This document shows, piece after piece, positions 19,883 through 57,629 of a stretch of DNA of 64,000 nucleotides; position 1 is the stretch's first letter; every line of letters starts with the position of its first letter. The notes under the pieces were generated by a model that was given only the letters and a program-made list of their open reading frames with translations, was not told the DNA's origin and ran no database searches. Source of the DNA: Globodera rostochiensis (taxonomy: Eukaryota; Nematoda; Chromadorea; Rhabditida; Heteroderidae); assembly GCA_018350325.1 (NCBI GenBank), contig JAEVLN010000030.1, positions 310,001-374,000 on the forward strand, given 5' to 3'. Position numbers and translations under genes: made by a program.

Positions 19883-20343
19883 CTGGTGGAGAACAAAGAT
19901 AAACAAAATTTAAGAATGCATAATGAAATCTTATAACAATTAAATATGAACGCAATATTAATTTATTCTATTTTTTAATAATAGAATACAAGAAAAGACA
20001 GACTTCAAAAAAACCGTTTTTATTAACTTAAGCATGAAATCATGTAAATTTTGTGTTAATTAATTTTTGTTTAAAAATAATTTTATCGTTAAAATGCTTT
20101 AAAATATAAAATAATATGTATATTAATATTACAAAATCACTTTTTTAAATGTTAGCACGTTTTTTAACTTTTTCATCACGGCCAGGATTATTTATTTTTA
20201 CATTTAAAAATTGAAATTATGCAAAGTTAAAGATCTATATTTAATTCTGAATATATTATTTCATGGTGGCCAAAGTACATTATTTTACCAATAACACAAT
20301 AATAGCCCGTTGGAATTGCTACAAAAGATGCATAAAAACTGTT

Positions 20344-20796
20344 GGTAATACTCCAGTTTGTCCCCCGCCCCCCCCCTTTTTCGAAAAAATACAAAATTTT
20401 TAAAAGTCATATAAAACACATTTCCGGAGGGTTTTCGGGGTCGCTGATCACGATGCTGCCATTTATTTTACGCAATTCCGAACCCCGGACCCGAATTCGA
20501 ACAAAATTTTTCGAAACTTCAAAATTTTCCAAAATTCAATTTTAGCCTCAAAATCATTCAAAAAGCATAAAATTACAATGAAAAAGCAAATAATGATCGA
20601 ATTCATGCTTTTTAAATGATTTTGAGGCTAAAATGGAATTTTGGAAAATTTTGAATTTTCGAAAAATGTTCGAATTCGGGTCCGGGATTCGGAATTAGCG
20701 ACCACGAAAACCCTCAGGAAACATGTTTTATATGACTTTTAAAAAATTTTGTATTTATTCGAAAAGGAGGGGGGGAGGACAAACTGGAGTATTACC
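20344..20796. mobile_element. Fold-back MITE, copy in unit 1
   Basis: The whole 453-bp element is an imperfect palindrome. It begins GGTAATACTCCAGTTTGTCC, ends with its reverse complement, and is flanked by the 8-bp duplication AAACTGTT (20336-20343 and 20797-20804). Ends contain C9/G7-type homopolymers followed by a long hairpin through CCCGGACCCGAATTCGAAC. An 8-bp duplication fits hAT, Merlin or P-type elements; the GG start is unlike classical hAT ends, so the superfamily is open. No coding capacity. Confidence 0.85.
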
Positions 20797-23682
20797 AAAC
20801 TGTTCTCTAAAAAAATCAATCAAAAATTACTTATACTCATTTAAATAGTAGAAGCAAAAATTCAAAAAACATAAGACCATGACTGTATATTTTAAGTTTA
20901 AATTTTTGAACTATTATATAAATTAAAATTTATGTTTGAGGTTTAAAATTGACTGGACTTTGGCAACGCTTTATGGTAACTTTTTGTATTTTTACTAAAT
21001 TAGCATGCTCAAATGTTATTTCAGTTTTTAATTTTTAAAATCGTTTTTTGAATTTTTAAGTAATAAATATTAATTTAGCGTATTTTAGATTATTTAATTT
21101 GTAAATAAACTTTTTTAATATAACCACATAAATAACGCTTGAGGCTTTTGGCATTAAACAATGTATGAAATAGGTAAAGTTTCATAATTTTGTAGAATGC
21201 TTTTATTATTTTTGCTCAATATTTATTGGCTTTTACTGACAATTTTTATGATGCACATTTTATTATTGTAAAATCCTCCATAAGAAGTGATATTTTGTGG
21301 TATTCATGGGAAAGAGATCGGTTTGTTCGTTTTCACTTCCATCTTTGATTTAATTTTATTTTGCATTTGAAGATTTAATTTACGGCGCTAAGGGCTTCAT
21401 AATTTTTTGGGCAGAAGAAGTATTTTGGCAACATTAATGTTTTAATTAACAGACAGTTAATTGCAAATTTCTAATATTATCGTATAGATTATTGATTTAG
21501 TTAGAAATCTAAGATTTTTCACGTTTTAATTATTTTAGAAAGTTCTTAAATTATTTTAATTTATTTACACCTTCTCAGAAAGTTTGAGCAAATATTACGA
21601 AAACATTTTATATTACTCCAAAAATCTTAGAATTTTTAATTACTAATAGGTTTTGACAGGACAAATTGTCCGTGACCGGTAAAAATTTTAAATAATTTAT
21701 TGATTCTGCTTTCTCCATATATAATCCAATAATATAAAAAGCAATAAAATAAATAAAGTTATTATATTCAATAATATAACAGAAAGCAATGAAGGTTAAT
21801 CATCATTGTCCTGATCCCGAATCTGCGAAAAGATTTGATAAATAAAATAAATGAATAAAACAAAATGATAAAGGCAACCATTTAACATAAAACATAGGCT
21901 ACTTTTAGTTATCAAAACATGCATATAATAATATACATTACAAGAGCAAACGTAATTTAACTCGAAAATTAATATATTTATATATTTCATTGATTCGAAT
22001 TAAGTTTATTGCGAAGCAGTTTATCAATTAACTGGAAGTAAGCAACAAATAAAGACATCGTCACACGAAGAGATTGAAAGACGTTACGCAAGACCAGATA
22101 CCAAGTTTATTAGTAATTTAGAAAATGAAAATTTCATCATTAATTGCAAACACAAATGAATCATGTTTCAATGTTTCAAAAAATTAATAAAACTAATATT
22201 GTATTAATGAATCATTGTTATAATTAGTATGAATATTTTGAAATCAATTCAATAAAATTTTAATTATTCAACAAAATTTAAATATCCATTTGGCCTCTCT
22301 GCCGGGCATTATCGACCCGAATCTTCTGTAGAAAAAAAGAAGGCGCTAATCTTCATGATTTCCGTTATGTCCGGTTAATTTGTTTTGTATCCAGACCATT
22401 CTTACCATTGTTAAATTTTTTTAAATTATAATTTATTATGCTATTTTAACTGTGAAAACATAAAATGATCAGTAATTAAATTCTCGTAGCTCAGGTATAC
22501 ATATTTGTTTGCTAAAATTAAAAGAAGGTTATAATCAAAGATTTAATCTAAAATTAAAATAATAAACAAAAAACCAAAGTGAACATTGAAATACTGTTTG
22601 TGCCGAGTCCGCCATTTCTCAACAATATGCAATGCAATTGAATTAAAAAATTTTACTCTAATATGTTACGCAAATGAATTTGAAGGAAGAAATTTGCCCA
22701 AAATAATAATGTAAATTTATAAACGGCAACAAAATAACGCCGAGGTACAAAAGCCGGAATGTATGGAGATTATTGTGTTTATTACGCGAGCGATGCAACA
22801 ATGATTTGAATCTGAGAATAGCAAATATTATTTGAATGGTTACGAAACAAAGCTATTTAAAAAAATAAATTTATAAATATTTTTGTTTTAAATAAAAAAT
22901 TTTTAATATTTTGTTTAAATTTATATATGTTTTTATCTTATGTTAAACAAAGCCGACAGTGTTGCAAGTGCATGAACCCTATAGACGTTTAAATGATTAA
23001 TATATAAAGAAGTGCAATAGTCAATAAAAATTTTAAAGCAATAGAGTACAATTTGGTATTTTAATTTCAAATAAAAAAAATCACTTCAATATCGTTTTTA
23101 ACCGGCGCGTAGTAGCAATTAATCTATTAATTTGAAATTTAAATTAATTATAAATTTAATAGTTAAAAATTTTGTTAATAATAATTGCTCTATTTATTAA
23201 AACAATAAAGTTATAATACATTCAAAATGCAACTTAATGCTTGTGAGCCATTTGTTCAAATATCAAATTCAAAATTGAAATCATTTAAAAAAAATTATGA
23301 GACGAGCAGGAATCAAAATATTGTAAGCAATAAAATTATTACTAAACAATAAAATAGGGATATTTTTAAAAGTAATTATAAATTTTCTTGTTGCATAAGT
23401 ATTAATAACCTCACAAGCATAAATCTTTTCTTTGTGCTTAAAAATAAAAACAATTTCAAAATCATCAAGATTATAGTAAAAATTGTAATTAAATAAATAA
23501 ATAAAATAATACCGTTTGAATTGATTATTAGCTTGATTTTAACAATTAAGCAAAACTTTAAAAAATTCAAAACATGCAGCCAAGGAAATGGTAACAAAAA
23601 AATTAAATTTAAATTCTATATTTATGTGAAAGAGAAGGAGCGATTTCGCTAGAGTGTGAAACTTTCCCAATTAAATTCGCAG

Positions 23683-23782
23683 ACAAGCCTTGATGTCTCT
23701 ATTGGAGACTCTGACCATCTTCAAAAGCTCGGAGGGCAAAAAGATGGCGGATCAGCTGCTGGGCTTTTACAAAAATAAATGA
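23683..23782 (+). CDS. Terminal exon of an unidentified gene (unit 1)
   Basis: The acceptor AATTAAATTCGCAG ends at 23682. After one phase base, 32 codons lead to TGA at 23780-23782; the peptide begins QALMSLLETLTIFKSSEGKK and ends LLGFYKNK. Leucines and alanines fall on one face, as in an amphipathic helix, and the frame is GC-rich against an AT-rich background. A second frame is also open, but its peptide is low-complexity. I do not recognise the protein. Upstream exons probably lie in the 22.3-22.8 kb islands of the same unit. Confidence 0.5.
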
Positions 23783-24111
23783 GCTAAACAACTAATATTT
23801 TATATGAACTTCGTAAATTATTTTTCATCATTTAATTAATAAAAATAATTTTATCGTTAAAATGCTTTAAAATATAAAATAATATGTATATTAATATTAC
23901 AAAATCACTTTTTTAAATGTTAGCACGTTTTTTAACTTTTTCATCACGGCCAGGATTATTTATTTTTACATTTAAAAATTGAAATTATGCAAAGTTAAAG
24001 ATCTATATTTAATTCTGAATATATTATTTCATGGTGGCCAAAGTACATTATTTTACCAATAACACAATAATAGCCCGTTGGAATTGCTACAAAAGATGCA
24101 TAAAAACTGTT

Positions 24112-24565
24112 GGTAATACTCCAGTTTGTCCCCCGCCCCCCCCCTTTTTCGAAAAAATACAAAATTTTTTAAAAGTCATATAAAACACATTTCCGGAGGG
24201 TTTTCGGGGTCGCTGATCACGATGCTGCCATTTATTTTACGCAATTCCGAACCCCGGACCCGAATTCGAACAAAATTTTTCGAAACTTCAAAATTTTCCA
24301 AAATTCAATTTTAGCCTCAAAATCATTCAAAAAGCATAAAATTACAATGAAAAAGCAAATAATGATCGAATTCATGCTTTTTAAATGATTTTGAGGCTAA
24401 AATGGAATTTTGGAAAATTTTGAATTTTCGAAAAATGTTCGAATTCGGGTCCGGGATTCGGAATTAGCGACCACGAAAACCCTCAGGAAACATGTTTTAT
24501 ATGACTTTTAAAAAATTTTGTATTTATTCGAAAAGGAGGGGGGGAGGACAAACTGGAGTATTACC
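24112..24565. mobile_element. Fold-back MITE, copy in unit 2
   Basis: Same element as at 20344, one base longer in a T run, with the same AAACTGTT flanks. It was carried here by the tandem duplication, not by a second insertion. Confidence 0.85.
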
Positions 24566-27450
24566 AAACTGTTCTCTAAAAAAATCAATCAAAAATTACT
24601 TATACTCATTTAAATAGTAGAAGCAAAAATTCAAAAAACATATGACCATGACTGTATATTTTAAGTTTAAATTTTTGAACTATTATATAAATTAAAATTT
24701 ATGTTTGAGGTTTAAAATTGACTGGACTTTGGCAACGCTTTATGGTAACTTTTTGTATTTTTACTAAATTAGCATGCTCAAATGTTATTTCAGTTTTTAA
24801 TTTTTAAAATCGTTTTTTGAATTTTTAAGTAATAAATATTAATTTAGCGTATTTTAGATTATTTAATTTGTAAATAAACTTTTTTAATATAACCACATAA
24901 ATAACGCTTGAGGCTTTTGGCATTAAACAATGTATGAAATAGGTAAAGTTTCATAATTTTGTAGAATGCTTTTATTATTTTTGCTCAATATTTATTGGCT
25001 TTTACTGACAATTTTTATGATGCACATTTTATTATTGTAAAATCCTCCATAAGAAGTGATATTTTGTGGTATTCATGGGAAAGAGATCGGTTTGTTCGTT
25101 TTCACTTCCATCTTTGATTTAATTTTATTTTGCATTTGAAGATTTAATTTACGGCGCTAAGGGCTTCATAATTTTTTGGGCAGAAGAAGTATTTTGGCAA
25201 CATTAATGTTTTAATTAACAGACAGTTAATTGCAAATTTCTAATATTATCGTATAGATTATTGATTTAGTTAGAAATCTAAGATTTTTCACGTTTTAATT
25301 ATTTTAGAAAGTTCTTAAATTATTTTAATTTATTTACACCTTCTCAGAAAGTTTGAGCAAATATTACGAAAACATTTTATATTACTCCAAAAATCTTAGA
25401 ATTTTTAATTACTAATAGGTTTTGACAGGACAAATTGTCCGTGACCGGTAAAAATTTTAAATAATTTATTGATTCTGCTTTCTCCATATATAATCCAATA
25501 ATATAAAAAGCAATAAAATAAATAAAGTTATTATATTCAATAATATAACAGAAAGCAATGAAGGTTAATCATCATTGTCCTGATCCCGAATCTGCGAAAA
25601 GATTTGATAAATAAAATAAATGAATAAAACAAAATGATAAAGGCAACCATTTAACATAAAACATAGGCTACTTTTAGTTATCAAAACATGCATATAATAA
25701 TATACATTACAAGAGCAAACGTAATTTAACTCGAAAATTAATATATTTATATATTTCATTGATTCGAATTAAGTTTATTGCGAAGCAGTTTATCAATTAA
25801 CTGGAAGTAAGCAACAAATAAAGACATCGTCACACGAAGAGATTGAAAGACGTTACGCAAGACCAGATACCAAGTTTATTAGTAATTTAGAAAATGAAAA
25901 TTTCATCATTAATTGCAAACACAAATGAATCATGTTTCAATGTTTCAAAAAATTAATAAAACTAATATTGTATTAATGAATCATTGTTATAATTAGTATG
26001 AATATTTTGAAATCAATTCAATAAAATTTTAATTATTCAACAAAATTTAAATATCCATTTGGCCTCTCTGCCGGGCATTATCGACCCGAATCTTCTGTAG
26101 AAAAAAAGAAGGCGCTAATCTTCATGATTTCCGTTATGTCCGGTTAATTTGTTTTGTATCCAGACCATTCTTACCATTGTTAAATTTTTTTAAATTATAA
26201 TTTATTATGCTATTTTAACTGTGAAAACATAAAATGATCAGTAATTAAATTCTCGTAGCTCAGGTATACATATTTGTTTGCTAAAATTAAAAGAAGGTTA
26301 TAATCAAAGATTTAATCTAAAATTAAAATAATAAACAAAAAACCAAAGTGAACATTGAAATACTGTTTGTGCCGAGTCCGCCATTTCTCAACAATATGCA
26401 ATGCAATTGAATTAAAAAATTTTACTCTAATATGTTACGCAAATGAATTTGAAGGAAGAAATTTGCCCAAAATAATAATGTAAATTTATAAACGGCAACA
26501 AAATAACGCCGAGGTACAAAAGCCGGAATGTATGGAGATTATTGTGTTTATTACGCGAGCGATGCAACAATGATTTGAATCTGAGAATAGCAAATATTAT
26601 TTGAATGGTTACGAAACAAAGCTATTTAAAAAATAAATTTATAAATATTTTTGTTTTAAATAAAAAATTTTTAATATTTTGTTTAAATTTATATATGTTT
26701 TTATCTTATGTTAAACAAAGCCGACAGTGTTGCAAGTGCATGAACCCTATAGACGTTTAAATGATTAATATATAAAGAAGTGCAATAGTCAATAAAAATT
26801 TTAAAGCAATAGAGTACAATTTGGTATTTTAATTTCAAATAAAAAAAATCACTTCAATATCGTTTTTAACCGGCGCGTAGTAGCAATTAATCTATTAATT
26901 TGAAATTTAAATTAATTATAAATTTAATAGTTAAAAATTTTGTTAATAATAATTGCTCTATTTATTAAAACAATAAAGTTATAATACATTCAAAATGCAA
27001 CTTAATGCTTGTGAGCCATTTGTTCAAATATCAAATTCAAAATTGAAATCATTTAAAAAAAATTATGAGACGAGCAGGAATCAAAATATTGTAAGCAATA
27101 AAATTATTACTAAACAATAAAATAGGGATATTTTTAAAAGTAATTATAAATTTTCTTGTTGCATAAGTATTAATAACCTCACAAGCATAAATCTTTTCTT
27201 TGTGCTTAAAAATAAAAACAATTTCAAAATCATCAAGATTATAGTAAAAATTGTAATTAAATAAATAAATAAAATAATACCGTTTGAATTGATTATTAGC
27301 TTGATTTTAACAATTAAGCAAAACTTTAAAAAATTCAAAACATGCAGCCAAGGAAATGGTAACAAAAAAATTAAATTTAAATTCTATATTTATGTGAAAG
27401 AGAAGGAGCGATTTCGCTAGAGTGTGAAACTTTCCCAATTAAATTCGCAG

Positions 27451-27550
27451 ACAAGCCTTGATGTCTCTATTGGAGACTCTGACCATCTTCAAAAGCTCGG
27501 AGGGCAAAAAGATGGCGGATCAGCTGCTGGGCTTTTACAAAAATAAATGA
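27451..27550 (+). CDS. Terminal exon of an unidentified gene (unit 2)
   Basis: Exact counterpart of the exon at 23683-23782, produced by the tandem duplication; acceptor, phase and stop codon are all retained. If the duplication is real in the organism, the gene has two alternative 3' ends or a duplicated tail. Confidence 0.5.
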
Positions 27551-27822
27551 GCTAAACAACTAATATTTTATATGAACTTCGTAAATTATTTTTCATCATT
27601 TAATTAAATTTGTTACAGCAAAAGCAAAAAACAACTACCCAAATAAGTAAATATGAAAGTCTTATATTTATTGATACATAAAATACTTAAAATAACTATG
27701 TGTTATTCTTTAAAAGTTAACAAACCCTAATATTTATAAAAATAAACGCATGCTCTTAATTTAAAATGTCTCACATTTTGTAATATCATAAATATTTAAG
27801 CAATAATTAGTTGGATTTTTGC

Positions 27823-29545: not shown

Positions 29546-29551
29546 AATAGA
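29546..29551 (+). repeat. Target site duplication, left (AATAGA)
   Basis: AATAGA immediately precedes the element start AGCAGTG and is repeated at 37821-37826; the empty site at 55219-55224 has it once. Confidence 0.92.
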
Positions 29552-30340
29552 AGCAGTGTTGCCCCAAGAATCTGGCCCCAAATTTCATGGCCCGTCAACC
29601 CCTTCCCCTCTTCCCGCGCACACACCTTTCCACCCGCCCGGGAAGCCAACTGAGCGCCAACCTCCCAAGCCACCGGCTTTCCCTTTTCCTCCCTCCCCCA
29701 CCTTACCCCGAACCCTGTCCCTTCCCCTCTTCCCGCGCACACACCTTTCCACCCGCCCGGGAAGCCAACTGAGCGCCAACCTCCCAAGCCACCGGCTTTG
29801 CCTTTCCTCCCTCAGGGGAAGGCCGATTGAGCGCCAGCCTCTTAAGAAGGGCAACCAGATACTAAGGCCCGCTGAGCGCCATAATTTAAGGGAAATCCGC
29901 CCCAAATTTCATGGCCCGTCAACCCGCTCCCTCCCTCCAGACTCCCCCCCCCCCCTTTTCCAGCACATATCTTTCCCCTTCCCTCCCTCCCAACCCCTAT
30001 CCCCTTCCTTCCCTCCCTATTGACCCCTCACCTTCCTCCCCTCCCCTTCCCCACACCACTTCTCCCTCACGGGCAAGCCAACTGAGCACCAGACTTTTAT
30101 GAAGAAAACGGCTTCCAGAGATTGAAGCCAGATGAGCACCAGATTTTTTTGATGTAGGGAATGATACGGATATGGCCCCAAATTTCTCTGCCCGTCAACC
30201 CTATCCCCTTCCCTCCCTCCCGACCCCACCCCCCCCTTCCCGTGCACACCACTTCCCTCCCTCCCGGAAAGCCAACTGAGCGCCAGACGTTTATGAGAAA
30301 ACGACATCTCCACCCGCTCCTCCCTCTTATCGTATTGAGA
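29552..30340 (+). repeat. GC-rich subterminal repeats of the left arm
   Basis: Imperfect tandem modules combine CCCCAAATTTCATGGCCCGT (three times: 29574, 29903, 30175, the last diverged), C/T-rich tracts, and a GCCAACTGAGCGCCA-type word that recurs seven times (for example 29645, 29764, 29823, 29869, 30075, 30127, 30272). Strong C-over-G skew on this strand. Open frames here are proline/serine/arginine repeats produced by the tracts and are not genes. Confidence 0.85.
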
Positions 30341-30677
30341 TCTTAATGGCGAAAACATAAAAGGAATTTTATATAATCAGGAACTTGTAAGGGTTTCAGA
30401 AGACCCCAGACTTGCGGAATATTAAAAACGCGAGTTCGTAAAGGGGTCAAAGAACATTTTGTTCGGTGGTTGGTAGACACAAACAAACCAAACAGTTGGG
30501 TAAAAGATTCGGATTTTGAAAAGAAATAGAATGGGGGTTATTCCATACCGAAGAGGACATGTTTTAGAAGAATTAGAGGTTTCTTCTGATCTCAAAAGGT
30601 GAATGCCTATTAAGAAAAAGGTGAATGATAAACCAATTTATGTTTATAAGGAAGGTCAAAGGATGAGATGCCCAAGA

Positions 30678-31262
30678 ATGACAAACAGTACGACAATGTA
30701 TCACGATTATGACAAACAGTATGACTACGACGTGAAAAGTGTGACTATAATAGGACGTTATAAAGACTCTTGTATGATTAAGTATGACTATTATGAGCCT
30801 GTTATGACAATTATATGACAAAACAATGACTATGGTATGCCTATTGTATGACCAAGTATGACAAATGATGACTGTGACATGAGAAGATGACCAGGTGATG
30901 ACTATAACGTGAGAAAATTATGACTATGACATGACTAATGTATGACAATACGATACCACGGTATGACAAAATATTACTATGATATGACATATTATTAGTA
31001 TTACAAGACAAAGTATGAATAGTATTACAAATGGACGATCAAGGGAAGACAAATTAAGACTCGGTTATGACTATCACACGAAAAAATAATGGCGATTATG
31101 ACTATGACATGACAAATATATGACAAACAGCATGCCAAAATATAACATACGCATGATATGACAAAAGATGACAATAATTGACAATAACGACTATGTTGAT
31201 GGAGTGTTAATGACGATTAGTAATGATGCATATGATAGGGTATAATGATTAAAATGCCGTAT
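30678..31262 (+). repeat. Degenerate TATGAC tract, left arm
   Basis: About 580 bp dominated by variants of TATGACAA, ATGACTATGACATG and GATTATGAC. The apparent 71-codon frame in it is a translation of the repeat. Confidence 0.85.
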
Positions 31263-31823
31263 GAGATGGGGAAAAAATGAGGGCAAAAATATATCGTATG
31301 ATGACTACGAATATGCTTTTGATGTGACAAATAAATATTAAGTAAAATTCTCTCTTGGTAACAATGCTATCAACAAGATGTGGCGTCACTTCCGTCCACA
31401 ACCCATTACAAATGGGGCCAAAGGAGTATCCTTTCCAACCCAACCGCCCGGCGAAGGTCCATCAAGAGGTCTACAAAACCTATCTAGTCTGTGAATTTGG
31501 ATCTGTTTTATACAAATGATATATCATTTGAAAGAGGAGATTTTTCTGCACAGAATTACTTCGCAAATATTTTTTTAAAGACCAATGAACGATACTATGT
31601 GCTCATAGTGTAATAAGGCTATTGGTACTGCAAAATACAAGTTCAAAGTAATCCATTAATTTAACCGAGATCCAAGCCTAATGGATGTTTTTTCTACAAA
31701 AAATGCCCCGATTACACAAACCACCAACCAAAAGCTTAATCAAATGGTCCCCCAAAACTTATTGGGCCCATTGCCAAATCCAAAATTCAACTTCCCCCCC
31801 CCCGTCCCTCAAGGTCATTTCGG

Positions 31824-32046
31824 CACCTGTCAATCAAACTTTTCTCCGTGCACCAAAAATTTCATCGGACCGATTACCTGTCAATCAAACTTTTTTCTCC
31901 GCTTAAAATTTGCAACAAAGATTTCGACAGATTACCAATCGATTTCATTTTTGTGACATGTTAAATAAGGTTCGAAATAAGGGGTAGCGAGTCGGGTAAA
32001 AGTAGCGAAAGGGGGTGTAGCGAGTTGGCGGGTAGCGAGCAGGGTA
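31824..32046 (+). repeat. Short direct repeats in the element spacer
   Basis: CCTGTCAATCAAACTTTT occurs twice (near 31827 and 31879), and a GTAGCGAG-type word recurs four times at 31984-32040. The same repeats are mirrored in the right arm (35355-35580). Function unknown; this is the only sizeable non-coding stretch between the TATGAC tract and the genes. Confidence 0.6.
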
Positions 32047-32407
32047 AATACCCCGGCGGCTGTAATTTCACCTAAACGATATAGGGCACGTGTTTACGGA
32101 GGGAGGGGGGTGATAAAATAAGAGGATGGGGGCGCTGGTTAAAAACCAAACCCTATCGGGCCTTTTGCCAAATCTAAAATACGTACCCGCCACATTTTCA
32201 AGGCCATATCGCCGAGTGAAAAATATGAGAAGAAGGTCAGAAATTTGAGAAACTTTATCAGAATTATGAGAAGCTGGTCGGAAAAATTGAATTAGGACAG
32301 AAACTGATGGTCAAAGGAGAATAGAATGACCAATATGAAAAACGTGGATATGAGAATAAGAGAAAAAAAACTGCGAACTGTACGAAATTCAACATCGTTG
32401 AAAAAAA

Positions 32408-32415
32408 TATAAAAG
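32408..32415 (+). promoter_or_regulatory. TATA-like box before the left first gene
   Basis: TATAAAAG lies 35 bp upstream of the ATG at 32443, implying a very short leader. Confidence 0.45.
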
Positions 32416-32442
32416 CAAATCCAAATCACCGAAAAAGAAAAC

Positions 32443-32793
32443 ATGTACGAATTTAGCCCTCAAGTAAGGGAGAATACAGTATTTCTGAAAAAGATAGCCT
32501 CTAACCGTTCAGATCGAAAGAAGAACGAATTAATCGAGTCTGCAACTACCGACCAAATTTTGGCAATTGTTGAAATTTGTGTAAACATTTTGAGTTTTAA
32601 TTTCAAACTTAATAAAAGCCAAAAACAAAAACTTATCCAGTACGCAGATTTTTATCGGGCTATTGCCAGATCACGTTCGGAAAAGGCAGCAAGAAAAGAA
32701 ATACAGCAGGGAAGCGGAATAGCGCTAGGAGCACTCATAATCCCTGTTCTAAGTGTTCTAGCTCAACATTTGTTAGAAAAAATCATATCATGA
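32443..32793 (+). CDS. Element gene 1, left copy: 116-aa basic protein with hydrophobic Gly/Ala tail
   Basis: A predicted virion- or core-type small protein. Residues 16-30 are basic (KKIASNRSDRKK), 35-60 form a probable helix (DQILAIVEICVNILSF), 60-86 are basic and helical, and 89-112 are a Gly/Ala/Leu-rich hydrophobic tail (QGSGIALGALIIPVLSVLAQ). Small basic proteins with this kind of tail recall, from memory, the pX-like core proteins of adenovirus/adintovirus-like elements; this is a resemblance in architecture, not a verified homology. The start follows a TATA-like box by 35 bp. Its stop codon TGA overlaps the next gene's ATG as ATGA. An identical translation is encoded by the right arm (34464-34814). 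Codon use and GC content are unlike the AT-rich host islands. Confidence 0.75.
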   Translation: MYEFSPQVRENTVFLKKIASNRSDRKKNELIESATTDQILAIVEICVNILSFNFKLNKSQKQKLIQYADFYRAIARSRSEKAARKEIQQGSGIALGALIIPVLSVLAQHLLEKIIS

Positions 32794-33302
32794 AATTTGC
32801 AAAGAAAACGATAATGGTCCCAGAAGCGGAATACCATTCGTTATTAAACGCGTTCAGGGGCGGAGATTATCTGCAAAATGAAAAAGCCTTATTAGATGCA
32901 AAGATTATGCAAAATTTAGAAGATCCAACAATAAGTGAAGATCTTAAAGCGAGTAGACATAGTTGGCTTTATAAGGAGCGAAGAATGATAAAAAGAATGG
33001 TTGATAATAGACCGCAAAGAGTTGTGATTGTTAACCAAAATGCGGCACCTAATGTTGCACCATATTTGGGGGTTAGTCAGCCGAATAGCCAGGCAACCGA
33101 GGAGCCAAGAAAATTCATAGTGCCTACAAAAAGGCTCAGAAGGGAAGAAAACGAAAGTGAGGAAGTGGATAAAAACTTGATAGATGAAAACATGAGGGCG
33201 GTGATTCAATCTTCGTCAAATGAAGAAGAACCCCCATTCGAAATACACTCCCCAGTTTCTTCCGAAACATCGTCGACGCCACCAAGTCTTGAATTTTCCT
33301 GA
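32790..33302 (+). CDS. Element gene 2, left copy: truncated at the fold-back junction (170 aa)
   Basis: Overlaps gene 1 by the four bases ATGA, the arrangement used for coupled termination-reinitiation in some viruses. Residues 1-162 are identical to the 292-residue right-arm copy. At 33277 the arm ends and the frame runs into unrelated sequence, adding TPPSLEFS before TGA. The C-terminal 130 residues of the intact protein are therefore missing. It keeps the N-terminal MVPEAEYHSLL region, a basic KERRMIKRM stretch, the PTKRLRREE basic motif and an acidic serine-rich linker. Probably non-functional or dominant-interfering; that is speculation. Confidence 0.75.
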   Translation: MKFAKKTIMVPEAEYHSLLNAFRGGDYLQNEKALLDAKIMQNLEDPTISEDLKASRHSWLYKERRMIKRMVDNRPQRVVIVNQNAAPNVAPYLGVSQPNSQATEEPRKFIVPTKRLRREENESEEVDKNLIDENMRAVIQSSSNEEEPPFEIHSPVSSETSSTPPSLEFS

Positions 33303-33980
33303 CTTATGCTTATAATAACGATAACCATCGCAAAATTTCCCCTTCACATCTTTTATTGTGTTTAATTTGGGCATTTTTTATTTTGCATATACCCCCCTAA
33401 AACGCATACCCTATATACTTTTAGGTGAACTTTCACCCGATTACACCTCTTTTCACCTATTTTGTGTTCACCTTTTTCACCTACTTGCATTTCACCTTTT
33501 TACCCGGTTGTGTTTAACCCGCATTATCTTTTTGACACGTCGACGCCGGCCATACGCGCGCAATAACGTACGGCAATATCATATTAATCTATAGCCTTGC
33601 CCATAATGTAGGCTTAAACGGTTTTTTCATCTGCTGTTGCGTGCCGGTATTTTTTATAGGGTTGTTTTTTATAAAAACTTTTGTACCTTTTCCCCACATG
33701 GCGCTTGACTTGTCAACCATTTCTCGTATTTTCGCGTCTTTTAAGAGCCTATCCTTTAGAAATTTTGCTCCCCGGGGTGTGTCCATCTCTTCTCCTGCGA
33801 GATATTTCAAGACGTTCTTATAATTGCTGTCATCAATTGGCAGGTTTTTATTAGACTGAACTTTCCCTCTTGCTGTTATTTTAAATGTATCTTTGTTTTT
33901 AGATACATAATTAAAAAGATCTCCTAATAAGTTGGGGTGAATGATCGTAGTAGGGCGCAATTTTTCGGGTGTTTTAAAAA
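33277..33980. other. Unduplicated centre of the palindrome
   Basis: 704 bp holding the C-terminal part of the right-arm gene 2 (33589-33980) and about 310 bp of non-coding DNA (33277-33588) with a TTTCACCT repeat block. This is the only part of the element present once, and it contains the fold-back junction. Confidence 0.85.
33421..33500. promoter_or_regulatory. TTTCACCT repeat block, central copy
   Basis: The word TTTCACCT or close variants recurs about every 10-16 bp, beginning TTAGGTGAA. More than 50 bp are shared with the block at 35181-35282, including ACCTCTTTTCACCTATTTTG. It lies beyond the end of gene 2, where the next gene of a parental element would start. Candidate promoter or factor-binding array. 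Confidence 0.5.
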
Positions 33981-34467
33981 TCGACGATGTTTCGGAAGAA
34001 ACTGGGGAGTGTATTTCGAATGGGGGTTCTTCTTCATTTGACGAAGATTGAATCACCGCCCTCATGTTTTCATCTATCAAGTTTTTATCCACTTCCTCAC
34101 TTTCGTTTTCTTCCCTTCTGAGCCTTTTTGTAGGCACTATGAATTTTCTTGGCTCCTCGGTTGCCTGGCTATTCGGCTGACTAACCCCCAAATATGGTGC
34201 AACATTAGGTGCCGCATTTTGGTTAACAATCACAACTCTTTGCGGTCTATTATCAACCATTCTTTTTATCATTCTTCGCTCCTTATAAAGCCAACTATGT
34301 CTACTCGCTTTAAGATCTTCACTTATTGTTGGATCTTCTAAATTTTGCATAATCTTTGCATCTAATAAGGCTTTTTCATTTTGCAGATAATCTCCGCCCC
34401 TGAACGCGTTTAATAACGAATGGTATTCCGCTTCTGGGACCATTATCGTTTTCTTTGCAAATTTCAT
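33589..34467 (-). CDS. Element gene 2, right copy: full-length 292-aa protein
   Basis: The intact version of the second gene. Residues 1-25 begin with KKTIMVPEAEYHSLLNAF, 50-72 are basic (SWLYKERRMIKRM), 112-120 look like a nuclear-localisation motif (PTKRLRREE), 120-165 are an acidic Ser/Glu-rich linker, and 175-292 are a basic C-terminal domain with NLLGDLFNYV, NVLKYLAGEEMDTPRGAKFL and SSAMWGKGTKV. The combination of a short N-terminal motif, disordered linker and compact C-terminal domain suggests a small nucleic-acid- or capsid-associated protein; no enzymatic motif is visible. Overlaps gene 1 by ATGA. Similar small proteins occur, as far as I recall, beside gene 1-like proteins in invertebrate Polinton-type elements, which a search should test. 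Confidence 0.75.
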   Translation of the reverse strand: MKFAKKTIMVPEAEYHSLLNAFRGGDYLQNEKALLDAKIMQNLEDPTISEDLKASRHSWLYKERRMIKRMVDNRPQRVVIVNQNAAPNVAPYLGVSQPNSQATEEPRKFIVPTKRLRREENESEEVDKNLIDENMRAVIQSSSNEEEPPFEIHSPVSSETSSIFKTPEKLRPTTIIHPNLLGDLFNYVSKNKDTFKITARGKVQSNKNLPIDDSNYKNVLKYLAGEEMDTPRGAKFLKDRLLKDAKIREMVDKSSAMWGKGTKVFIKNNPIKNTGTQQQMKKPFKPTLWARL

Positions 34468-34814
34468 GATATGATTTTTTCTAACAAATGTTGAGCTAGA
34501 ACACTTAGAACAGGGATTATGAGTGCTCCTAGCGCTATTCCGCTTCCCTGCTGTATTTCTTTTCTTGCTGCCTTTTCCGAACGTGATCTGGCAATAGCCC
34601 GATAAAAATCTGCGTACTGGATAAGTTTTTGTTTTTGGCTTTTATTAAGTTTGAAATTAAAACTCAAAATGTTTACACAAATTTCAACAATTGCCAAAAT
34701 TTGGTCGGTAGTTGCAGACTCGATTAATTCGTTCTTCTTTCGATCTGAACGGTTAGAGGCTATCTTTTTCAGAAATACTGTATTCTCCCTTACTTGAGGG
34801 CTAAATTCGTACAT
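34464..34814 (-). CDS. Element gene 1, right copy: 116-aa basic protein
   Basis: Translation identical to the left-arm copy (32443-32793). This copy keeps its upstream TTTCACCT block (35181-35282) and is followed by the full-length gene 2, so it is the better candidate for an expressed unit. TGA at 34464-34466 overlaps the gene 2 start. Confidence 0.75.
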   Translation of the reverse strand: MYEFSPQVRENTVFLKKIASNRSDRKKNELIESATTDQILAIVEICVNILSFNFKLNKSQKQKLIQYADFYRAIARSRSEKAARKEIQQGSGIALGALIIPVLSVLAQHLLEKIIS

Positions 34815-34841
34815 GTTTTCTTTTTCGGTGATTTGGATTTG

Positions 34842-34849
34842 CTTTTATA
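34842..34849 (-). promoter_or_regulatory. TATA-like box before the right first gene
   Basis: TATAAAAG on the minus strand, mirror of 32408-32415, 35 bp before the gene 1 ATG. Confidence 0.45.
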
Positions 34850-35180
34850 TTTTTTTCAACGATGTTGAATTTCGTACAGTTCGCAGTTTTTTTTCTCTTA
34901 TTCTCATATCCACGTTTTTCATATTGGTCATTCTATTCTCCTTTGACCATCAGTTTCTGTCCTAATTCAATTTTTCCGACCAGCTTCTCATAATTCTGAT
35001 AAAGTTTCTCAAATTTCTGACCTTCTTCTCATATTTTTCACTCGGCGATATGGCCTTGAAAATGTGGCGGGTACGTATTTTAGATTTGGCAAAAGGCCCG
35101 ATAGGGTTTGGTTTTTAACCAGCGCCCCCATCCTCTTATTTTATCACCCCCCTCCCTCCGTAAACACGTGCCCTATATCG

Positions 35181-35282
35181 TTTAGGTGAAATTACACCTG
35201 ATTTCACCTCTTTTCACCTATTTTGTGTTCACATTTCACCTGTTTAGTTTTCACCTCTTTTCTCCATTTGCGTTTCACCTTT
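35181..35282. promoter_or_regulatory. TTTCACCT repeat block, right arm
   Basis: At least six TTTCACCT-like words in 100 bp, about 370 bp upstream of right-arm gene 1. Closely related to the central block at 33421-33500. The corresponding region of the left arm has been deleted, leaving only TTTCACCTAAACG at about 32068. Confidence 0.5.
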
Positions 35283-36142
35283 TAAATATTTATCCGCGCA
35301 TTATTCCAAACTAAAGGAAACCCTTGGTACCCGTACAAAGGTAAGCCGCCGGGGTATTTATCCTGCTCGCTACCCGCCAACTCGCTACACCCCCTCTCGC
35401 TACTTTTACCCGACTCGCTACCCCTTATTTCGAACCTTATTTAACATGTCACAAAAATGAAATCGATTGGTAATCTGTCGAAATCTTTGTTGCAAATTTT
35501 AAGCGGAGAAAAAAGTTTGATTGACAGGTAATCGGTCCGATGAAATTTTTGGTGCACGGAGAAAAGTTTGATTGACAGGTGCCGAAATGACCTTGAGGGA
35601 CGGCGGGGGGAAGTTGAATTTTGGATTTGGCAATGGGCCCAATAAGTTTTGGGGGACCATTTGATTAAGCTTTTGGTTGGTGGTTTGTGTAATCGGGGCA
35701 TTTTTTGTAGAAAAAACATCCATTAGGCTTGGATCTCGGTTAAATTAATGGATTACTTTGAACTTGTATTTTGCAGTACCAATAGCCTTATTACACTATG
35801 AGCACATAGTATCGTTCATTGGTCTTTAAAAAAATATTTGCGAAGTAATTCTGTGCAGAAAAATCTCCTCTTTCAAATGATATATCATTTGTATAAAACA
35901 GATCCAAATTCACAGACTAGATAGGTTTTGTAGACCTCTTGATGGACCTTCGCCGGGCGGTTGGGTTGGAAAGGATACTCCTTTGGCCCCATTTGTAATG
36001 GGTTGTGGACGGAAGTGACGCCACATCTTGTTGATAGCATTGTTACCAAGAGAGAATTTTACTTAATATTTATTTGTCACATCAAAAGCATATTCGTAGT
36101 CATCATACGATATATTTTTGCCCTCATTTTTTCCCCATCTCA

Positions 36143-36731
36143 TACGGCATTTTAATCATTATACCCTATCATATGCATCATTACTAATCGTCATTAACAC
36201 TCCATCAACATAGTCGTTATTGTCAATTATTGTCATCTTTTGTCATATCATGCGTATGTTATATTTTGGCATGCTGTTTGTCATATATTTGTCATGTCAT
36301 AGTCATAATCGCCATTATTTTTTCGTGTGATAGTCATAACCGAGTCTTAATTTGTCTTCCCTTGATCGTCCATTTGTAATACTATTCATACTTTGTCTTG
36401 TAATACTAATAATATGTCATATCATAGTAATATTTTGTCATACCGTGGTATCGTATTGTCATACATTAGTCATGTCATAGTCATAATTTTCTCACGTTAT
36501 AGTCATCACCTGGTCATCTTCTCATGTCACAGTCATCATTTGTCATACTTGGTCATACAATAGGCATACCATAGTCATTGTTTTGTCATATAATTGTCAT
36601 AACAGGCTCATAATAGTCATACTTAATCATACAAGAGTCTTTATAACGTCCTATTATAGTCACACTTTTCACGTCGTAGTCATACTGTTTGTCATAATCG
36701 TGATACATTGTCGTACTGTTTGTCATTCTTG
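36143..36731 (-). repeat. Degenerate TATGAC tract, right arm
   Basis: Inverted counterpart of the left-arm tract; it reads as GTCATA variants on the plus strand. Confidence 0.85.
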
Positions 36732-37029
36732 GGCATCTCATCCTTTGACCTTCCTTATAAACATAAATTGGTTTATCATTCACCTTTTTCTTAATAGGCA
36801 TTCACCTTTTGAGATATCCTCTTCGGTATGGAATAACCCCCATTCTATTTCTTTTCAAAATCCGAATCTTTTACCCAACTGTTTGGTTTGTTTGTGTCTA
36901 CCAACCACCGAACAAAATGTTCTTTGACCCCTTTACGAACTCGCGTTTTTATTATTTCCGCAAGTCTGGGGTCTTCTGAAACCCTTACAAGTTCCTGATT
37001 ATATAAAATTCCTTTTATGTTTTCGCCAT

Positions 37030-37820
37030 TAAGATCTCAATACGATAAGAGGGAGGAGCGGGTGGAGATGTCGTTTTCTCATAAACGTCTGGCGCTCAGT
37101 TGGCTTTCCGGGAGGGAGGGAAGGGGTGTGCACGGGAAGGGGGGTGGGGTCGGGAGGGAGGGAAGGGGATAGGGTTGACGGGCAGAGAAATTTGGGGCCA
37201 TATCCGTATCATTCCCTACATCAAAAAAATCTGGTGCTCATCTGGCTTCAATCTCTGGAAGCCGTTTTCTTCATAAAAGTCTGGTGCTCAGTTGGCTTGC
37301 CCGTGAGGGAGAAGTGGTGTGGGGAAGGGGAGGGGAGGAAGGTGAGGGGTCAATAGGGAGGGAAGGAAGGGGATAGGGGTTGGGAGGGAGGGAAGGGGAA
37401 AGATATGTGCTGGAAAAGGGGGGGGGGGAGTCTGGAGGGAGGGAGCGGGTTGACGGGCCATGAAATTTGGGGCGGATTTCCCTTAAATTATGGCGCTCAG
37501 CGGGCCTTAGTATCTGGTTGCCCTTCTTAAGAGGCTGGCGCTCAATCGGCCTTCCCCTGAGGGAGGAAAGGCAAAGCCGGTGGCTTGGGAGGTTGGCGCT
37601 CAGTTGGCTTTCCGGGCGGGTGGAAAGGTGTGTGCGCGGGAAGAGGGGAAGGGACAGGGTTCGGGGTAAGGTGGGGGAGGGAGGAAAAGGGAAAGCCGGT
37701 GGCTTGGGAGGTTGGCGCTCAGTTGGCTTCCCGGGCGGGTGGAAAGGTGTGTGCGCGGGAAGAGGGGAAGGGGTTGACGGGCCATGAAATTTGGGGCCAG
37801 ATTCTTGGGGCAACACTGCT
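37030..37820 (-). repeat. GC-rich subterminal repeats of the right arm
   Basis: Inverted counterpart of 29552-30340, with the same seven TGGCGCTCA-type words on the plus strand and the same homopolymeric tracts. Confidence 0.85.
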
Positions 37821-37826
37821 AATAGA
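37821..37826 (+). repeat. Target site duplication, right (AATAGA)
   Basis: Follows the element end CACTGCT directly and continues into host sequence TATGAATAATT, matching 55225 onward. Confidence 0.92.
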
Positions 37827-51218: not shown

Positions 51219-53775
51219 GTATCAAAAAGTTGAATTTTGGAAATTTGGATTTGATTATTTAAAACAAAATTATTGATTTCATAACAGTGGCATACGCAAA
51301 TAAATTAAACAAATAGATTAAATAAATTCAAATATAACTAAAATTTAGGCTTATGTTGACTAAAGTCTATCGATCGATTGTTTGCAGTCTGCGGCTAAAT
51401 CCCAAAATTTTTTCACTAAAATTCTTGATTAAACATTTGTTTTAATTAAAATTGGTATGTATTTTATTTTTTAATAATAATAACGTTAACATGTGTATAG
51501 ATGGCGGTCGTTCCCATTGAGAAACTATTTTTTATAGGTAATTTACTTAAATTCTTAGATAATTATGTGTAATGTTATAACCCAAAAAAGTTATTTTTTA
51601 TTTTAAAGTTGTTATATTCCCTCCGGCTGGCCATTTGGTTTTGTGCCGTGTAAAAAGATATTCAATAGTTATTTCTAATTTTTTAGATTATCTGTATTTT
51701 CCTTTATAATAATTCGAAAAGCTTATTTTGTTAAAATCTTTAATTGTTGATAATTTTTGTTTCTGTTTTAATTTTGAGTTGTTTTATTATTTGTATGCGA
51801 TTGCTTCTTATTATTTCTCAAATAAATAAAGTTGTCGCCAGCCAAACTTGTTTGATACGCCATGTTTGCACTGCAAGATGGGAATGCACCAAATTGTTTT
51901 GATCGATGTTGGACTATCTAAATTTAATAATTAAATTACAAAAATTATTATTTTTAATGTGCAAACGATAAAAGAGTGTCTAAGAAAAATTGCCAGAACG
52001 ACATTCCAAACAATTATAAAAAACAATACAAAAATAACTTTAAAACAAAAATAAATTTTTATATAAGTGAAAAGGCTTACACATTTATTCTTACTATTAA
52101 ATTCAACCCAGCTTTGGAAAAAATAATAATTTTTTTAATTTTAGTTAAATATATATTTATTTGACAAATGTTTATTTTTTAAAATTGGTGCTAAAATATC
52201 TTTAAATTCAAAATGACACGTCAATTTTAAATTAATATTTTATTTAAAGAGATTTCAAAAAGAAATTTCATTAGGTATTTTTGTAGAATTGTTAAAATGC
52301 AAAAAGTTGAACCCAATATAAATAAATCTGATTAATTTTTGATTCAAATTATTATTTTTTAGTGTTTTAATGCAAACCCCCTCTCAACCTCGTGAATAGG
52401 ATACGGGATCGGAACTTTTCTGTGTCGCCATCGTCATATTCGACGTCATCGGGGAGATAAATCGACCAAATACTTGTAATTAATTGATGATTCGATTTGT
52501 ATATTCATGAGTATTTATGATTATTATTTAATTATACAATAAAAAATTTTGACAGTTTGAAATAATTATATATATGATATAAAATTAATTAATAATGCAA
52601 CTCGTTAAAATTTTAATTTAATAAACGCTAAAAAAGCTATAATGACAAGTCTGATAAGACAAGCCACCGCGCAAAATCCAAGATGGCCATTATTAACCAG
52701 TGCTTAGAATTTTAAAATGGAGGAATTTTGTTTAGCAATTTAAACGATGAGACAACATTCATCACGTATCTTGCCATATAAAATCATAATCAAAATTAAA
52801 TCAAATATGATAAATAAAAAATAAATGAATTATCGTCAAATGCAAGACTTTGAGCTAATTTAGAGTAAGCCAGAATGCAAGTGTAAAAATCAACTATAAC
52901 AGTGTTAAAGAATATATAATTAGCAGATCAATGCGTGCTACTTCTACCAGCCGGGCACAAGTAATCATTTTGTTATAATATATTTTGTTTAGGCTTACAT
53001 GGAATAAGATACTAATCGTTGCAGCATAAATTGAACCCGTGTTTAAATACTGTTGAAAATTTTAAAATAACATTATATGAAAGCTCATTTTTTATATAAT
53101 AATCGTTAAAATAAATAATTTATTTATTTAGACTGTATGATTAACGAAACACATAAAATCGCGTCAAATCATCCCGTGCATCTGCATGTAAATAGTTTGG
53201 CAAGAGATTTATGAAATATTTTGAAAACATTTATCTTTATTTTGTTTGGACTTGAAGTTTAAAATAATTATATAGTTCAGGCCCGCCTGAGCTACATATG
53301 CTGAGCCATTGCGAGAAATTTTGCGTATTTTTGTTATGCATTGATTTTGTATCGTGAGGCTCTCGTGATTCATTAATCATTTATGTGTGTTAACCTTTAT
53401 ATCGTTAAAAGATTTTTTTAATTATTTAAACAATTTTAAATGTTATAGAATATTTATTAAATATGTAAGTATCTTCAAATATTTGGTAATCGAGAAAATT
53501 TTAACAATAACAAATTAAATAATATAGAAATAAAACACTTCGAAACATGTAATACAAAAGTTTTAAAAGTAAATGGCAGCCTTTATTTTGAACAATAATT
53601 ATATTTGTTATTATTAATTTAATATCCATACACAATTAATGAAATAAATTTAAATTTACTAGAATTAATAAAAAGATATCTCATCTTCAATTTTAAAAAA
53701 TTTGTTCTTTTTGGTCAATTGTATTCAATTAAGAAACTAAATATTAAACCAGAATACACTTAACCATTATAATGC
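51219..53775 (+). repeat. Inverted segmental duplication, left arm
   Basis: 51830-53775 is the reverse complement, with about 5-10 percent divergence by eye, of 57630-59830. 51219-51416 is the reverse complement of 62707-62894. The inner 51417-51830 is unique to this arm, while the other arm has about 2.9 kb at the same place. Contains the exon 52389-52472. Confidence 0.88.
52389..52472 (-). CDS. Exon candidate, inverted-duplicate copy A
   Basis: 84 nt bounded by AATTACAAG acceptor and a GTTGAG donor on the minus strand. It encodes IWSIYLPDDVEYDDGDTEKF followed by RSRILFT. The sequence is identical to the other arm (59043-59126) although the flanking AT-rich DNA differs by substitutions and indels. 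Acidic and unidentified. Confidence 0.5.
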
Positions 53776-54332
53776 ATGATATTTTGATAAAATTCAGAGG
53801 TTTTTCTTTCTCATTCTTGAGTTCTATAATTTGTCCATTCTGCGCGCATACCCATGATACAACAGCTTATTGTGCTTTATTGTTGGTGATGAATAAGTAT
53901 CGGAACCTGCGACTCAAGAACATGACATCGCCAGCCACACTGGCAAATTAATAGAAAAATAAAACTAAATTTATTAAAGAAAAAAGAATTAATTCTGCGA
54001 TTAGCACAACAAACTTTTATTTTTTATAGCGGAATATTTTGAATCTGAAAAGCGAGCAAACTAAACAGTCAATTTATAAATCAATATTAATCAATCGATA
54101 TTATAATTTTTAATTCTACATAAACAAATTGAAAAAAATAAAAAATATATTAAAACCAATAATAATTTCTAAAAAACATTATTTAATTTGCTGACTGTGA
54201 TTTAAGATCACGCATTAAAAGCCTTTCAATTTAAAATAAAGCACAGCGCGGATTATTCATAACTATATTTTTATAAATTCAACATATTTTAAAAACAAAA
54301 TTCTGATGCAAATATGTTATAACATTTAACAG

Positions 54333-54415
54333 TGTCACCGCGAGGCTTATTCAAAAAGTTGATGAAGTATAACATTCAAACATGCCATTTTAGCACGACG
54401 GATCAGCTCTTATGG
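54333..54415 (+). CDS. Candidate exon cut by the duplication boundary in copy 1
   Basis: Acceptor TAACATTTAACAG at 54332 and donor TGG/GTAAAAATG bound 83 nt encoding SPRGLFKKLMKYNIQTCHFS then TTDQLLW. Homology with copy 1 begins inside the last codons (CTTATGG), so copy 1 at 28.1 kb keeps only the exon tail and donor attached to other sequence. Basic, unidentified. Confidence 0.42.
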
Positions 54416-56505
54416 GTAAAAATGATAAAACAATTCATTCTAATTAGATGTCACCGAATACGGGTAACAAGAAAAATATCGCTGTGCGAGTACAAAAAAC
54501 GGCGGTTTGTTCGCGAGTTTATAAAAACAAATAAATTTACATATAAAAATGTATAAGCTTTAAAATTCTTAAATACATAAAGCCATTACTACACAAACAC
54601 AGAAAGGAGAATTATTTGAGCTGTAAGCAGATCTCAACGAGTAATAATTATTCTGTCGGTCCTTCAATATAACTCGAAATTCAATTGAAAATTAAAAATT
54701 GTTTATTTAAAAGTTTGGGACTCAGGCTGTAAATAAAGTGATTCAAAATAATATCTAAATATTTAAATCTAAGATAACAGAAAACAAACTGGTCTAAAAT
54801 TTAAAATTTTCAAAAAGAATATAAGAACAATCAGAAATAAAAATTAATATAATTTGAACCAAAAAAATATCAAAAACGTATTTATCCAAGCAATTTTTAA
54901 TTTGTTCGGAATAAAAAGTAATAATAAAACAACATTTTATCGTAATAATGATAACAGAATTTCGTCCACCATCTCATGCTTAAAAAGCATACTACGCCGG
55001 GTTGTTTATTTAACTACATACAGAAATTGATAATGATAATTTTCATACAAATTTAACCTTTAACTTAATTTAAGCAACGTTTAAAATTAATTTAAAAATA
55101 TTGCATTACAGAAAAAATGGGTTATAAGCAGTAATAATGTTTGCAATTTAAGTATGAATATAACTAATCAACGCAAACTTTAATATAATAAAAATATACA
55201 AATTAATTTTTAAATTGTAATAGATATGAATAATTAAAGAAATGATGCGATAATGATATTTTATGTAAACTGTTAACTTTTTGGATATTAAAGGAATAAA
55301 TAAAGTAACTAATAAAATATCTTACCTTGATATAAGAAAAGTGTTTATCATTAAGAGCTGCCGGAAGTCATACGGCAGCGTATTCGGGCTGTTGCGTGCG
55401 AATCGAGAATCCTGACAAAGATAATATGGTAATAATTAATATATTTTAAATAATTAGACATTAAATAAAACCAAACAAAAATAACACTTTTAAATAAAGC
55501 AATCTTTGATACAAAATATGTAATAGTTTATTTATTTTTTAAAAATTTATTGCCTAAATAATTTGAAGATTTAAGGTTCAGCAATTTCGACTGCTGAAAA
55601 CGCCACAACGCCATCCATCAGAGCGCCTCACAACATAATTATATAACTAAAATTAAGCAAAACAATTATAATAAATGAAAATTTATTTAATATTTTAACT
55701 TAAAGCCAATTACAAATTAAAAAAAAGTTAGCTTAACTTATTTTGCGTAAGATTATTTTTTTATTGGGCAAATTAAAATTAAAACAATAAAGCACTGATG
55801 ATTTTGCAAACCCTTTGCAATGTTTGTTGTATCTGATTATTAATTAAATATATTGTGCCATTAATAAAAAATAACAAATTGCTCTTACATTGTAAAGCCT
55901 CAAATTTTGAATTAGTCAACTCAAAGAAAAAGGTCCATTGTCATGCGGGTTTGAAACTCCTATCCACAAGGCGGCGAATAAGGTAAAGAAAAATATGTTT
56001 CATTCTTACATTAAAATCTTAGAAAACAAAATGATTTGACGTTACGAGGAAATAATTATATATAAAGTAATAAAACCAAAGAATATTTATGCAATTAATT
56101 TTTCAACGAATTTGTTAATTTTACGATTAATAAATAAACAAATCGGAGAATGCAATGAGATGAGGATAAGAAAATATTTTTAATGTTATTTTAGTTAAAC
56201 AATTGAATACTTGAATTTTGTTGGAAAATTAAAAATTTTACTGAAATTATTTTGAACAAACTTTTAAAATATTAATAATAAATTAAATAAAGATAAATGC
56301 TTAAATTATTTTAGATTTAGTGCTCAAGGGCATCTTTGTTAATTCAATTAGGGATATTATTTAAATTTATCAGATTTTGTATGATAGAAAAATAATGCCT
56401 TTAAAATATACTTTATAAATATTAAAATTAATTTCTATCGAAAAATATGAATAGCAATTTTTGAAAGATCTGTGTTCGATGTTATTAGTAGCGGATGCCC
56501 AAGAT
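54405..56505 (+). repeat. Dispersed duplication, copy 2 (empty-site copy)
   Basis: Matches 28102-29551 joined to 37827-39505 without the palindromic element. The uninterrupted insertion site is at 55219-55224 (AATAGA). Lacks the 28676-29302 segment, the 85-bp segment near 37.9 kb and the 30-bp tandem repeat. Ends at CGGATGCCCAAGAT. Confidence 0.92.
55326..55411 (-). CDS. Internal exon of an unidentified gene (copy 2)
   Basis: Counterpart of 38008-38096, with the same acceptor TTTGTCAG and donor AAG/GTAAGA. It is 86 nt long because of a 3-bp in-frame deletion that removes one glycine (LPGYD to LPYD). Frame remains open. Confidence 0.6.
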
Positions 56506-56779
56506 GAATTAAATTATTATTTTACATTCCAGCTTCAATAATTCTTTAAAATTTTGGTAGGCTTGTGATCAGTTCATTCGTTTCTTTGATTTTGGTTGTT
56601 CATATTCGTCGCATTTCGTTACAAAACTACGACCCTTTATAAATCTTGTAATTAGTTTTGGTATTCATTATTTGGTAAATTTTATTGTCAAATAAAATAA
56701 ATAATGCGAGATTTTTTTATTTTGATTATTTTTTTAAATAATTTGTTTTAGATTGTTTTTATTTGTTCAATGTTTTCCC

Positions 56780-57536: not shown

Positions 57537-57629
57537 TTCTGTGTCAGTCGATTCGTTTTTTGCATATCTACAGATTTTATAATTGCAATTTGTTTGTATC
57601 CTTTCTCACCTCCAAAATAAATAATAAAT

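Follow-up and report, generated by a model that had tools for sequence, protein, structure and literature searches.

What kind of mobile element ends like a Polinton, yet consists almost entirely of inverted repeat and carries two small genes? The question is raised by a 64,000-nucleotide stretch of the Globodera rostochiensis genome (GenBank assembly GCA_018350325.1, contig JAEVLN010000030.1, positions 310,001 to 374,000; C24:310001-374000 in the contig labels used here), which is called the window throughout. The window contains a palindromic insertion that an original prediction, made from the letters of the window alone, had compared with Polintons/Mavericks. The insertion and its relatives were analyzed across the genome (92.6 Mb in 80 contigs). 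The element is best read as a non-autonomous palindromic Polinton derivative, likely a satellite that uses the PolB and integrase of helper elements, with a single arm as the likely template for both arms in each cycle. The probability assigned to this reading is about 0.63. The two genes encode proteins of 116 and 292 amino acids (aa).

Structure of the palindrome and its empty site

The element spans positions 29552-37820 of the window (8269 bp), begins with AGCAGTGTTGCCCC and has the inverse of AGCAGTGTTGCCCC at its other end. The left arm (29552..33276, + strand), which has short internal repeats in its outer part, pairs with the right arm (33981..37820, - strand) around an unpaired centre of 704 nt (33277..33980). 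This centre has been shrunk by asymmetric deletions relative to the related palindromes C67a and C45a. Alignment of arm against arm gave 7 mismatches and 6 gap events over 3691 aligned positions; the larger gaps leave the left arm short of 148 bp at 32061 and the right arm short of 30 bp. Blocks of 1216 and 1214 nt pair at 100% identity, which is too long for coincidence, and a chance palindrome was rejected.

Flank comparison identified the hexamer AATAGA on both sides of the element (29546..29551 and 37821..37826) as a 6-bp target site duplication (TSD). AATAGA is present singly, in uninterrupted sequence, at an unoccupied paralogous locus (55219..55224). This locus lies inside a segment (54399-56505) that is 94-98% identical to the locus surrounding the element. 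The near-perfect palindrome, the duplication and the empty site of the original prediction were all borne out by these comparisons.

A genome-wide family of palindromes

A genome search with one arm and both proteins detected about 20 loci with inverted arm pairs, which form two subfamilies that differ by ~10%. Subfamily 1 has nine members (the window element, C63, C67a, C67b, C42, C56a, C56c, C45a and C12a) and subfamily 2 has eleven (C13, C14b, C16, C28, C31, C33, C56b, C45b, C59, C24b and C12b). C14a has a single arm only in the stretch examined. Identity between partner arms ranges from 96.8% to 100% in 17 of the 18 copies measured, with C12b at 93.8%, values often taken from part of the arms; C45b and C59 are known from arm-search matches alone.

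Both ends were found in 10 of the 12 palindromes tried, and each of these ten has a perfect and different 6-bp TSD. The duplications in subfamily 1 are AATAGA (window), AACATA (C67a), TGCAAA (C67b), TCCGTA (C63), GGGGTC (C56c) and TTTTTC (C56a), and those in subfamily 2 are GATAAA (C13), CTCAGC (C16), TATGCT (C28) and ATTACC (C56b). All ten complete palindromes start with AGCAG, and their sizes range from 6.8 to 10.0 kb.

Full-length Polinton relatives

The Polinton/Maverick reading is supported by full-length relatives in the same genome that have a 6-bp TSD, PolB and an integrase of the rve type. One of these (C26 250513-265423; 14,911 bp; TSD AATACA) starts with AGCAGCATATGGC, a 13-base terminus common to C26 and four subfamily 2 palindromes (C13, C16, C28 and C56b). 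Its gene order is an ATPase-like open reading frame (ORF), the 116-aa gene, the 292-aa gene, the rve integrase and a convergent PolB. The ATPase-like ORF resembles the A32 type (PF04665, expect value [E] 0.0059, below the cut-off). The other (C2 672105-685269; 13,165 bp; TSD ATCAAC) starts with AGCAGTGTTGGCCCC, and its AGCAGTGTTGGCC terminus resembles those of several subfamily 1 palindromes. C2 has PolB matches and an integrase in each terminal repeat, the repeats being 87% identical over 1.65 kb. An integrase inside both terminal repeats may be a step towards palindromes. The exact 14-bp terminus of the window element occurs elsewhere only at C5 and C45, where no nearby PolB was found among the best candidates scored. 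A relative that combines the same ends with PolB and integrase, which had been proposed as a check, therefore exists in C26 and C2 for related ends, but the exact terminus of the window element has no PolB alongside among the best candidates scored.

PolB (PF03175) has no match in the window element or in any other of the 20 palindromes among the best candidates scored; C26 and C2 match. The rve integrase matches at least 2 of the 20 (C67b and C56a), in both arms of each, and the C67b ORF passes the Pfam cut-off. The window element has no rve match among the matches listed, in keeping with the earlier description of an element devoid of polymerase and integrase. On sequence grounds the Polinton interpretation holds for the origin and integration of the element, and with no match to either PolB or integrase it is a non-autonomous derivative rather than a strict Polinton. 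The puzzle of an element that is almost all inverted repeat with two genes is accounted for once the element is seen as one of many palindromic derivatives, none with a PolB match.

At C22:459630-475230, a Polinton terminus and the same left flank recur 15.5 kb on in direct orientation, and the interval inside (461922-471590) has subfamily 1-type ends with an integrase match on each side. The 1.7-kb intervals at C5:1604719-1606455 and C34:332906-334642 are bounded by inverted 14-bp Polinton termini with one mismatch and are possibly miniature derivatives.

Symmetric replacement of the ends

Both ends of C56a match the right end of C2 (99.4% and 99.3% identity over 1446 and 1473 columns, with 3 mismatches each), and the matching outer columns include the integrase. 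The match of the C56a ends to the left end of C2 is only 86% (137 mismatches). The derivation of both ends from one parental end, as in snap-back genomes, was found for C56a versus C2 and for this copy only. Two separate capture events would both need the same Polinton end type at the same place, so one event in a single arm that was then copied to the other is the simpler account.

Outer arms were compared by global alignment, which avoids off-register repeats (an earlier C56c count was 81.5%). The genes of the window element and C67b are 99.76% identical (834 columns), yet their outer 900 bp do not truly align (55% identity, 866 gap columns). Within a single copy, the left outer arm agrees with the right at 894/897 aligned positions in the window element, 897/899 in C67a, 896/897 in C67b, 809/816 in C56c (168 gap columns), 1393/1393 in C56a and 175/176 in C63 (177 bp only). 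Agreement is thus at least 99% in the six subfamily 1 copies compared. A gene-region tree of 33 rows included 11 copies with both arms. Partner arms are sisters in 8 of these 11, with strong support in five (window, C16, C28, C31 and C33).

An alternative is that gene conversion between the integrated arms homogenizes them, as it does in palindromes of the Y chromosome, and that no replication intermediate takes part. This process would fit partner arms that are nearly identical in 17 of the 18 copies measured when the subfamilies are ~10% apart, as well as the exchange visible between elements and the unequal outer arms of C13 described below. Conversion would, however, have to replace at least 1.4 kb up to the very terminus after the capture of a foreign end by C56a. 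Unpaired indels such as the 148-bp gap in the window element also persist, and conversion is therefore not constant. Gene conversion is considered a rather unlikely explanation.

A common centre within each subfamily

The C67a centre, including its unpaired loop, aligns with C45a along all of its 1071 bases (98% identity), with C12a along 1035 bases (97%) and with C63 in pieces (98%). Subfamily 2 copies have their own common loop, which is 94.6-100% identical where covered. The common centre occurs at different sites, with a separate TSD wherever both ends were found, and the palindrome itself has therefore been copied within each subfamily. The centre-proximal arms of the two subfamilies are homologous, with 80-85% identity in the best blocks. 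The C33 loop outscores all 200 shuffles in local score against both subfamily 1 loops; the local scores of the C31 and C13 loops against the subfamily 1 loops were not above all 200 shuffles.

A common centre bears directly on independent origins, in which each palindrome would arise by a fold-back error in, or deletion of, a full-length Polinton and be inserted once without reproducing itself. Fold-back errors are expected for linear protein-primed genomes, most partner arms are sisters in the tree, and loop homology between the subfamilies is weak. The centre-near part of the arm has a 76% match at four places; PolB lies within 10 kb of three of these, and Polintons with that stretch therefore exist. 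The loop is nevertheless unmatched at those four places, and no PolB element with the subfamily 1 loop was found. An unpaired centre that is common to different-site copies of one subfamily also argues against separate foldings, and independent origins are judged improbable.

The elements at C49:42390-48728, C56:1830442-1834132 and C17:969817-974674 look chimaeric, with a subfamily 2 arm (116 and 292 aa) joined to PolB. They have no rve match between the arm and PolB among the matches listed. C49 nests inside subfamily 2 in the gene tree. All three part from the palindrome sequence before the loop, a further point against independent origins. Folding of PolB-bearing C49-type elements is unsupported as the source of the palindromes, because the homology gives out near C49:45705, short of the loop.

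Long-read data can contain fold-back chimaeras, but an assembly artefact from such reads is very improbable because the left and right flanks differ, each of the 10 copies with both ends has a perfect TSD, the arms have specific real indels and the empty paralogue has a single AATAGA.

Proposed replication cycle

Polintons are thought to replicate as linear DNA by protein priming and may form virions; to our knowledge their replication cycle has hardly been seen. A palindromic satellite rebuilt from one arm would follow from a cycle of this type. Protein-primed synthesis of an extrachromosomal linear form would begin at one Polinton terminus. The displaced strand would fold back, or the polymerase would change template near the centre, to give a one-armed hairpin. 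Copying of the hairpin would yield an exact two-armed palindrome with identical ends, and the Polinton integrase would insert it with a 6-bp duplication. PolB would be supplied in trans, and so would the integrase for the 18 copies without an integrase match. Because one arm would template both, any arm change, including a captured Polinton end, would be on both sides after the next cycle.

A broader proposal is that the palindromes form a long-lived satellite class that is regenerated from a single arm in each cycle and switches helpers through one captured end copied to both sides. The odds given to this proposal are just short of even. If it is true, the single arm is the unit of inheritance, every gene automatically comes in two full copies, and animals have helper-switching satellites of virus-like transposons that resemble defective interfering genomes. 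Should one-arm templating be the cause of the symmetric end replacement, the genome would preserve evidence of a protein-primed stage outside the chromosomes in which intermediates fold back. What is new is a family that multiplies in palindromic form and has its ends replaced symmetrically. A literature search covering titles, abstract openings and part of the matches found no description of palindromic Polintons; novelty is not settled by it.

Several observations weigh against a satellite rebuilt from one arm. The unpaired loops of the two subfamilies are only weakly homologous. In 3 of the 11 copies with both arms (C13, C63 and C67a), one arm is nearer to another element than to its partner; exchange between elements therefore occurs too, and could aid end swapping. 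The outer arms of the window element, C67a and C56c are related (93.5-95.6% identity over the aligned part, 440-1204 gap columns) and differ by long indels, which leaves C67b and C56a as the only clear cases of wholesale replacement. The outer 580 bp of C13 (490948-499993), the sole subfamily 2 copy compared, agree at 336 of 413 positions with 334 gap columns. End symmetry in C13 was lost or never complete, and the end repeats of one side appear altered. C56a could also have taken its ends from a Polinton in which both termini are of the C2 right-end type. One end was found in each of C45a and C12a, and the second was not found at the place predicted by symmetry. Replication and helper use are inferred, not observed.

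Genes carried by the palindromes

The 116-aa gene of the window element has identical left (32443..32793, +) and right (34464..34814, -) copies. The 292-aa gene has one full copy (33589..34467, -), with relatives in Globodera and Heterodera, and a left copy (32790..33302, +) that the deletion in the centre truncates near codon 163. The centre also holds a 98-nt remnant (33277..33374, -) of a 74-aa FLYWCH-like gene, about its first 33 codons, recognized by homology with C67a 1493331-1493428. The two small genes per arm described originally stand as 116-aa and 292-aa pairs; the truncation of the left 292-aa copy and the remnant of a third gene amend that description. The 74-aa frame is open in C67a, C45a, C31 and C33, where it lies between the 292-aa gene and the centre on the opposite strand. 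It is similar to the FLYWCH zinc finger (PF04500; E 4.7e-4 in C67a and 0.11 in C33, both below the curated cut-off).

A Pfam search returned no match to the 116-aa or the 292-aa protein, and a PDB search by sequence returned no relative of the 116-aa family. The named relatives of the 292-aa protein are in Globodera pallida (62%) and Heterodera, and those of the 116-aa family are in Meloidogyne. The predicted structure of the 292-aa protein has a predicted local distance difference test (pLDDT) score of 50, too poor for use. The 116-aa model, of modest confidence (pLDDT 67), best matches 'GasderminX' of a box turtle adintovirus (E 1.1e-3, template modelling [TM] scores 0.60/0.63, 25% identity; next match, 0.35), and no match in this search reached 1e-3.

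The neighborhood of the 116-aa gene was assessed at 46 non-palindromic places, hand-picked from 102 listed matches with about 80 aligned residues or more. At 36 of these places an rve integrase follows on the same strand no more than 2.6 kb downstream, and PolB lies within 20 kb at 26. Either gene is near at 40 places and neither at 6. The integrase and PolB neighbors thus show that, in this genome, the 116-aa gene belongs to Polintons.

The 116-aa frame is intact in 28 of the 33 rows of the gene set, in which palindromic and full-length elements are pooled. Substitution counts used the longest open frames, which biases them towards intact copies. By these counts, purifying selection in subfamily 2 acts on the 116-aa gene (17 non-synonymous against 23 synonymous, p = 1.1e-5) and weakly on the 292-aa gene (57 against 34, p = 0.0024). 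The few changes in the subfamily 1 116-aa gene (2 non-synonymous and 4 synonymous, p = 0.037) give little support for selection, and purifying selection on the 292-aa gene is unsupported in subfamily 1 (17 and 4, p = 0.76).

Other features of the window

A 3.77-kb tandem duplication occupies positions 20072-27607, its copies (20072-23839 and 23840-27607) being 99.9% identical. A second inverted repeat (52046-59452) has arms of ~97% identity and a 3.8-kb spacer that includes the empty-site copy. Its relatives elsewhere in the genome are only two partial ones of at least 600 bp (77-79%) and a few short ones. By eye, a frame at 2404-4014 (-) appears Gag-like with a zinc-knuckle-like motif, and a short frame at 63430-63843 (-) resembles the C terminus of a hAT transposase.

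Comparison with known systems

Non-autonomous fold-back transposons and miniature inverted-repeat transposable elements also have long inverted repeats and incomplete machinery of their own. The palindromes differ from them in having kilobase arms with protein genes and symmetric end replacement. Adintoviruses, which are Polinton-like animal viruses, are linked to the palindromes by the predicted resemblance of the 116-aa model to 'GasderminX', a likeness limited by the pLDDT of 67 and an E of 1.1e-3 that falls short of 1e-3. A literature search found no paper joining adintovirus with gasdermin.

The Polintons/Mavericks of nematode lineages have in common with the palindromes a 6-bp TSD, AG/CT termini, terminal inverted repeats and the 116-aa and 292-aa genes. 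The C26 terminus in four palindromes and the integrase matches in at least 2 of 20 add to the likeness. Unlike them, the palindromes lack a PolB match among the best candidates scored, are nearly all inverted repeat, have the same end twice and measure 6.8-10.0 kb (ten complete copies) compared to 13.2-14.9 kb for C2 and C26. PMC8097293 gives the 6-bp TSD as a Polinton/Maverick feature and AG or AGT repeats as the terminal motifs of vertebrate Polintons; measured against those motifs, the AGCAG of the palindromes has only the AG start in common.

The palindromes also resemble snap-back and hairpin derivatives of linear genomes in having one end doubled, identical ends and a centre that is the turning point. 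Such derivatives include the symmetric genomes of adenovirus, the hairpin plasmid from yeast pGKL1 and the snap-back genomes of adeno-associated virus. The palindromes stand apart from these in being integrated at many loci, in exchanging ends with autonomous relatives and in carrying genes that appear conserved at least in subfamily 2.

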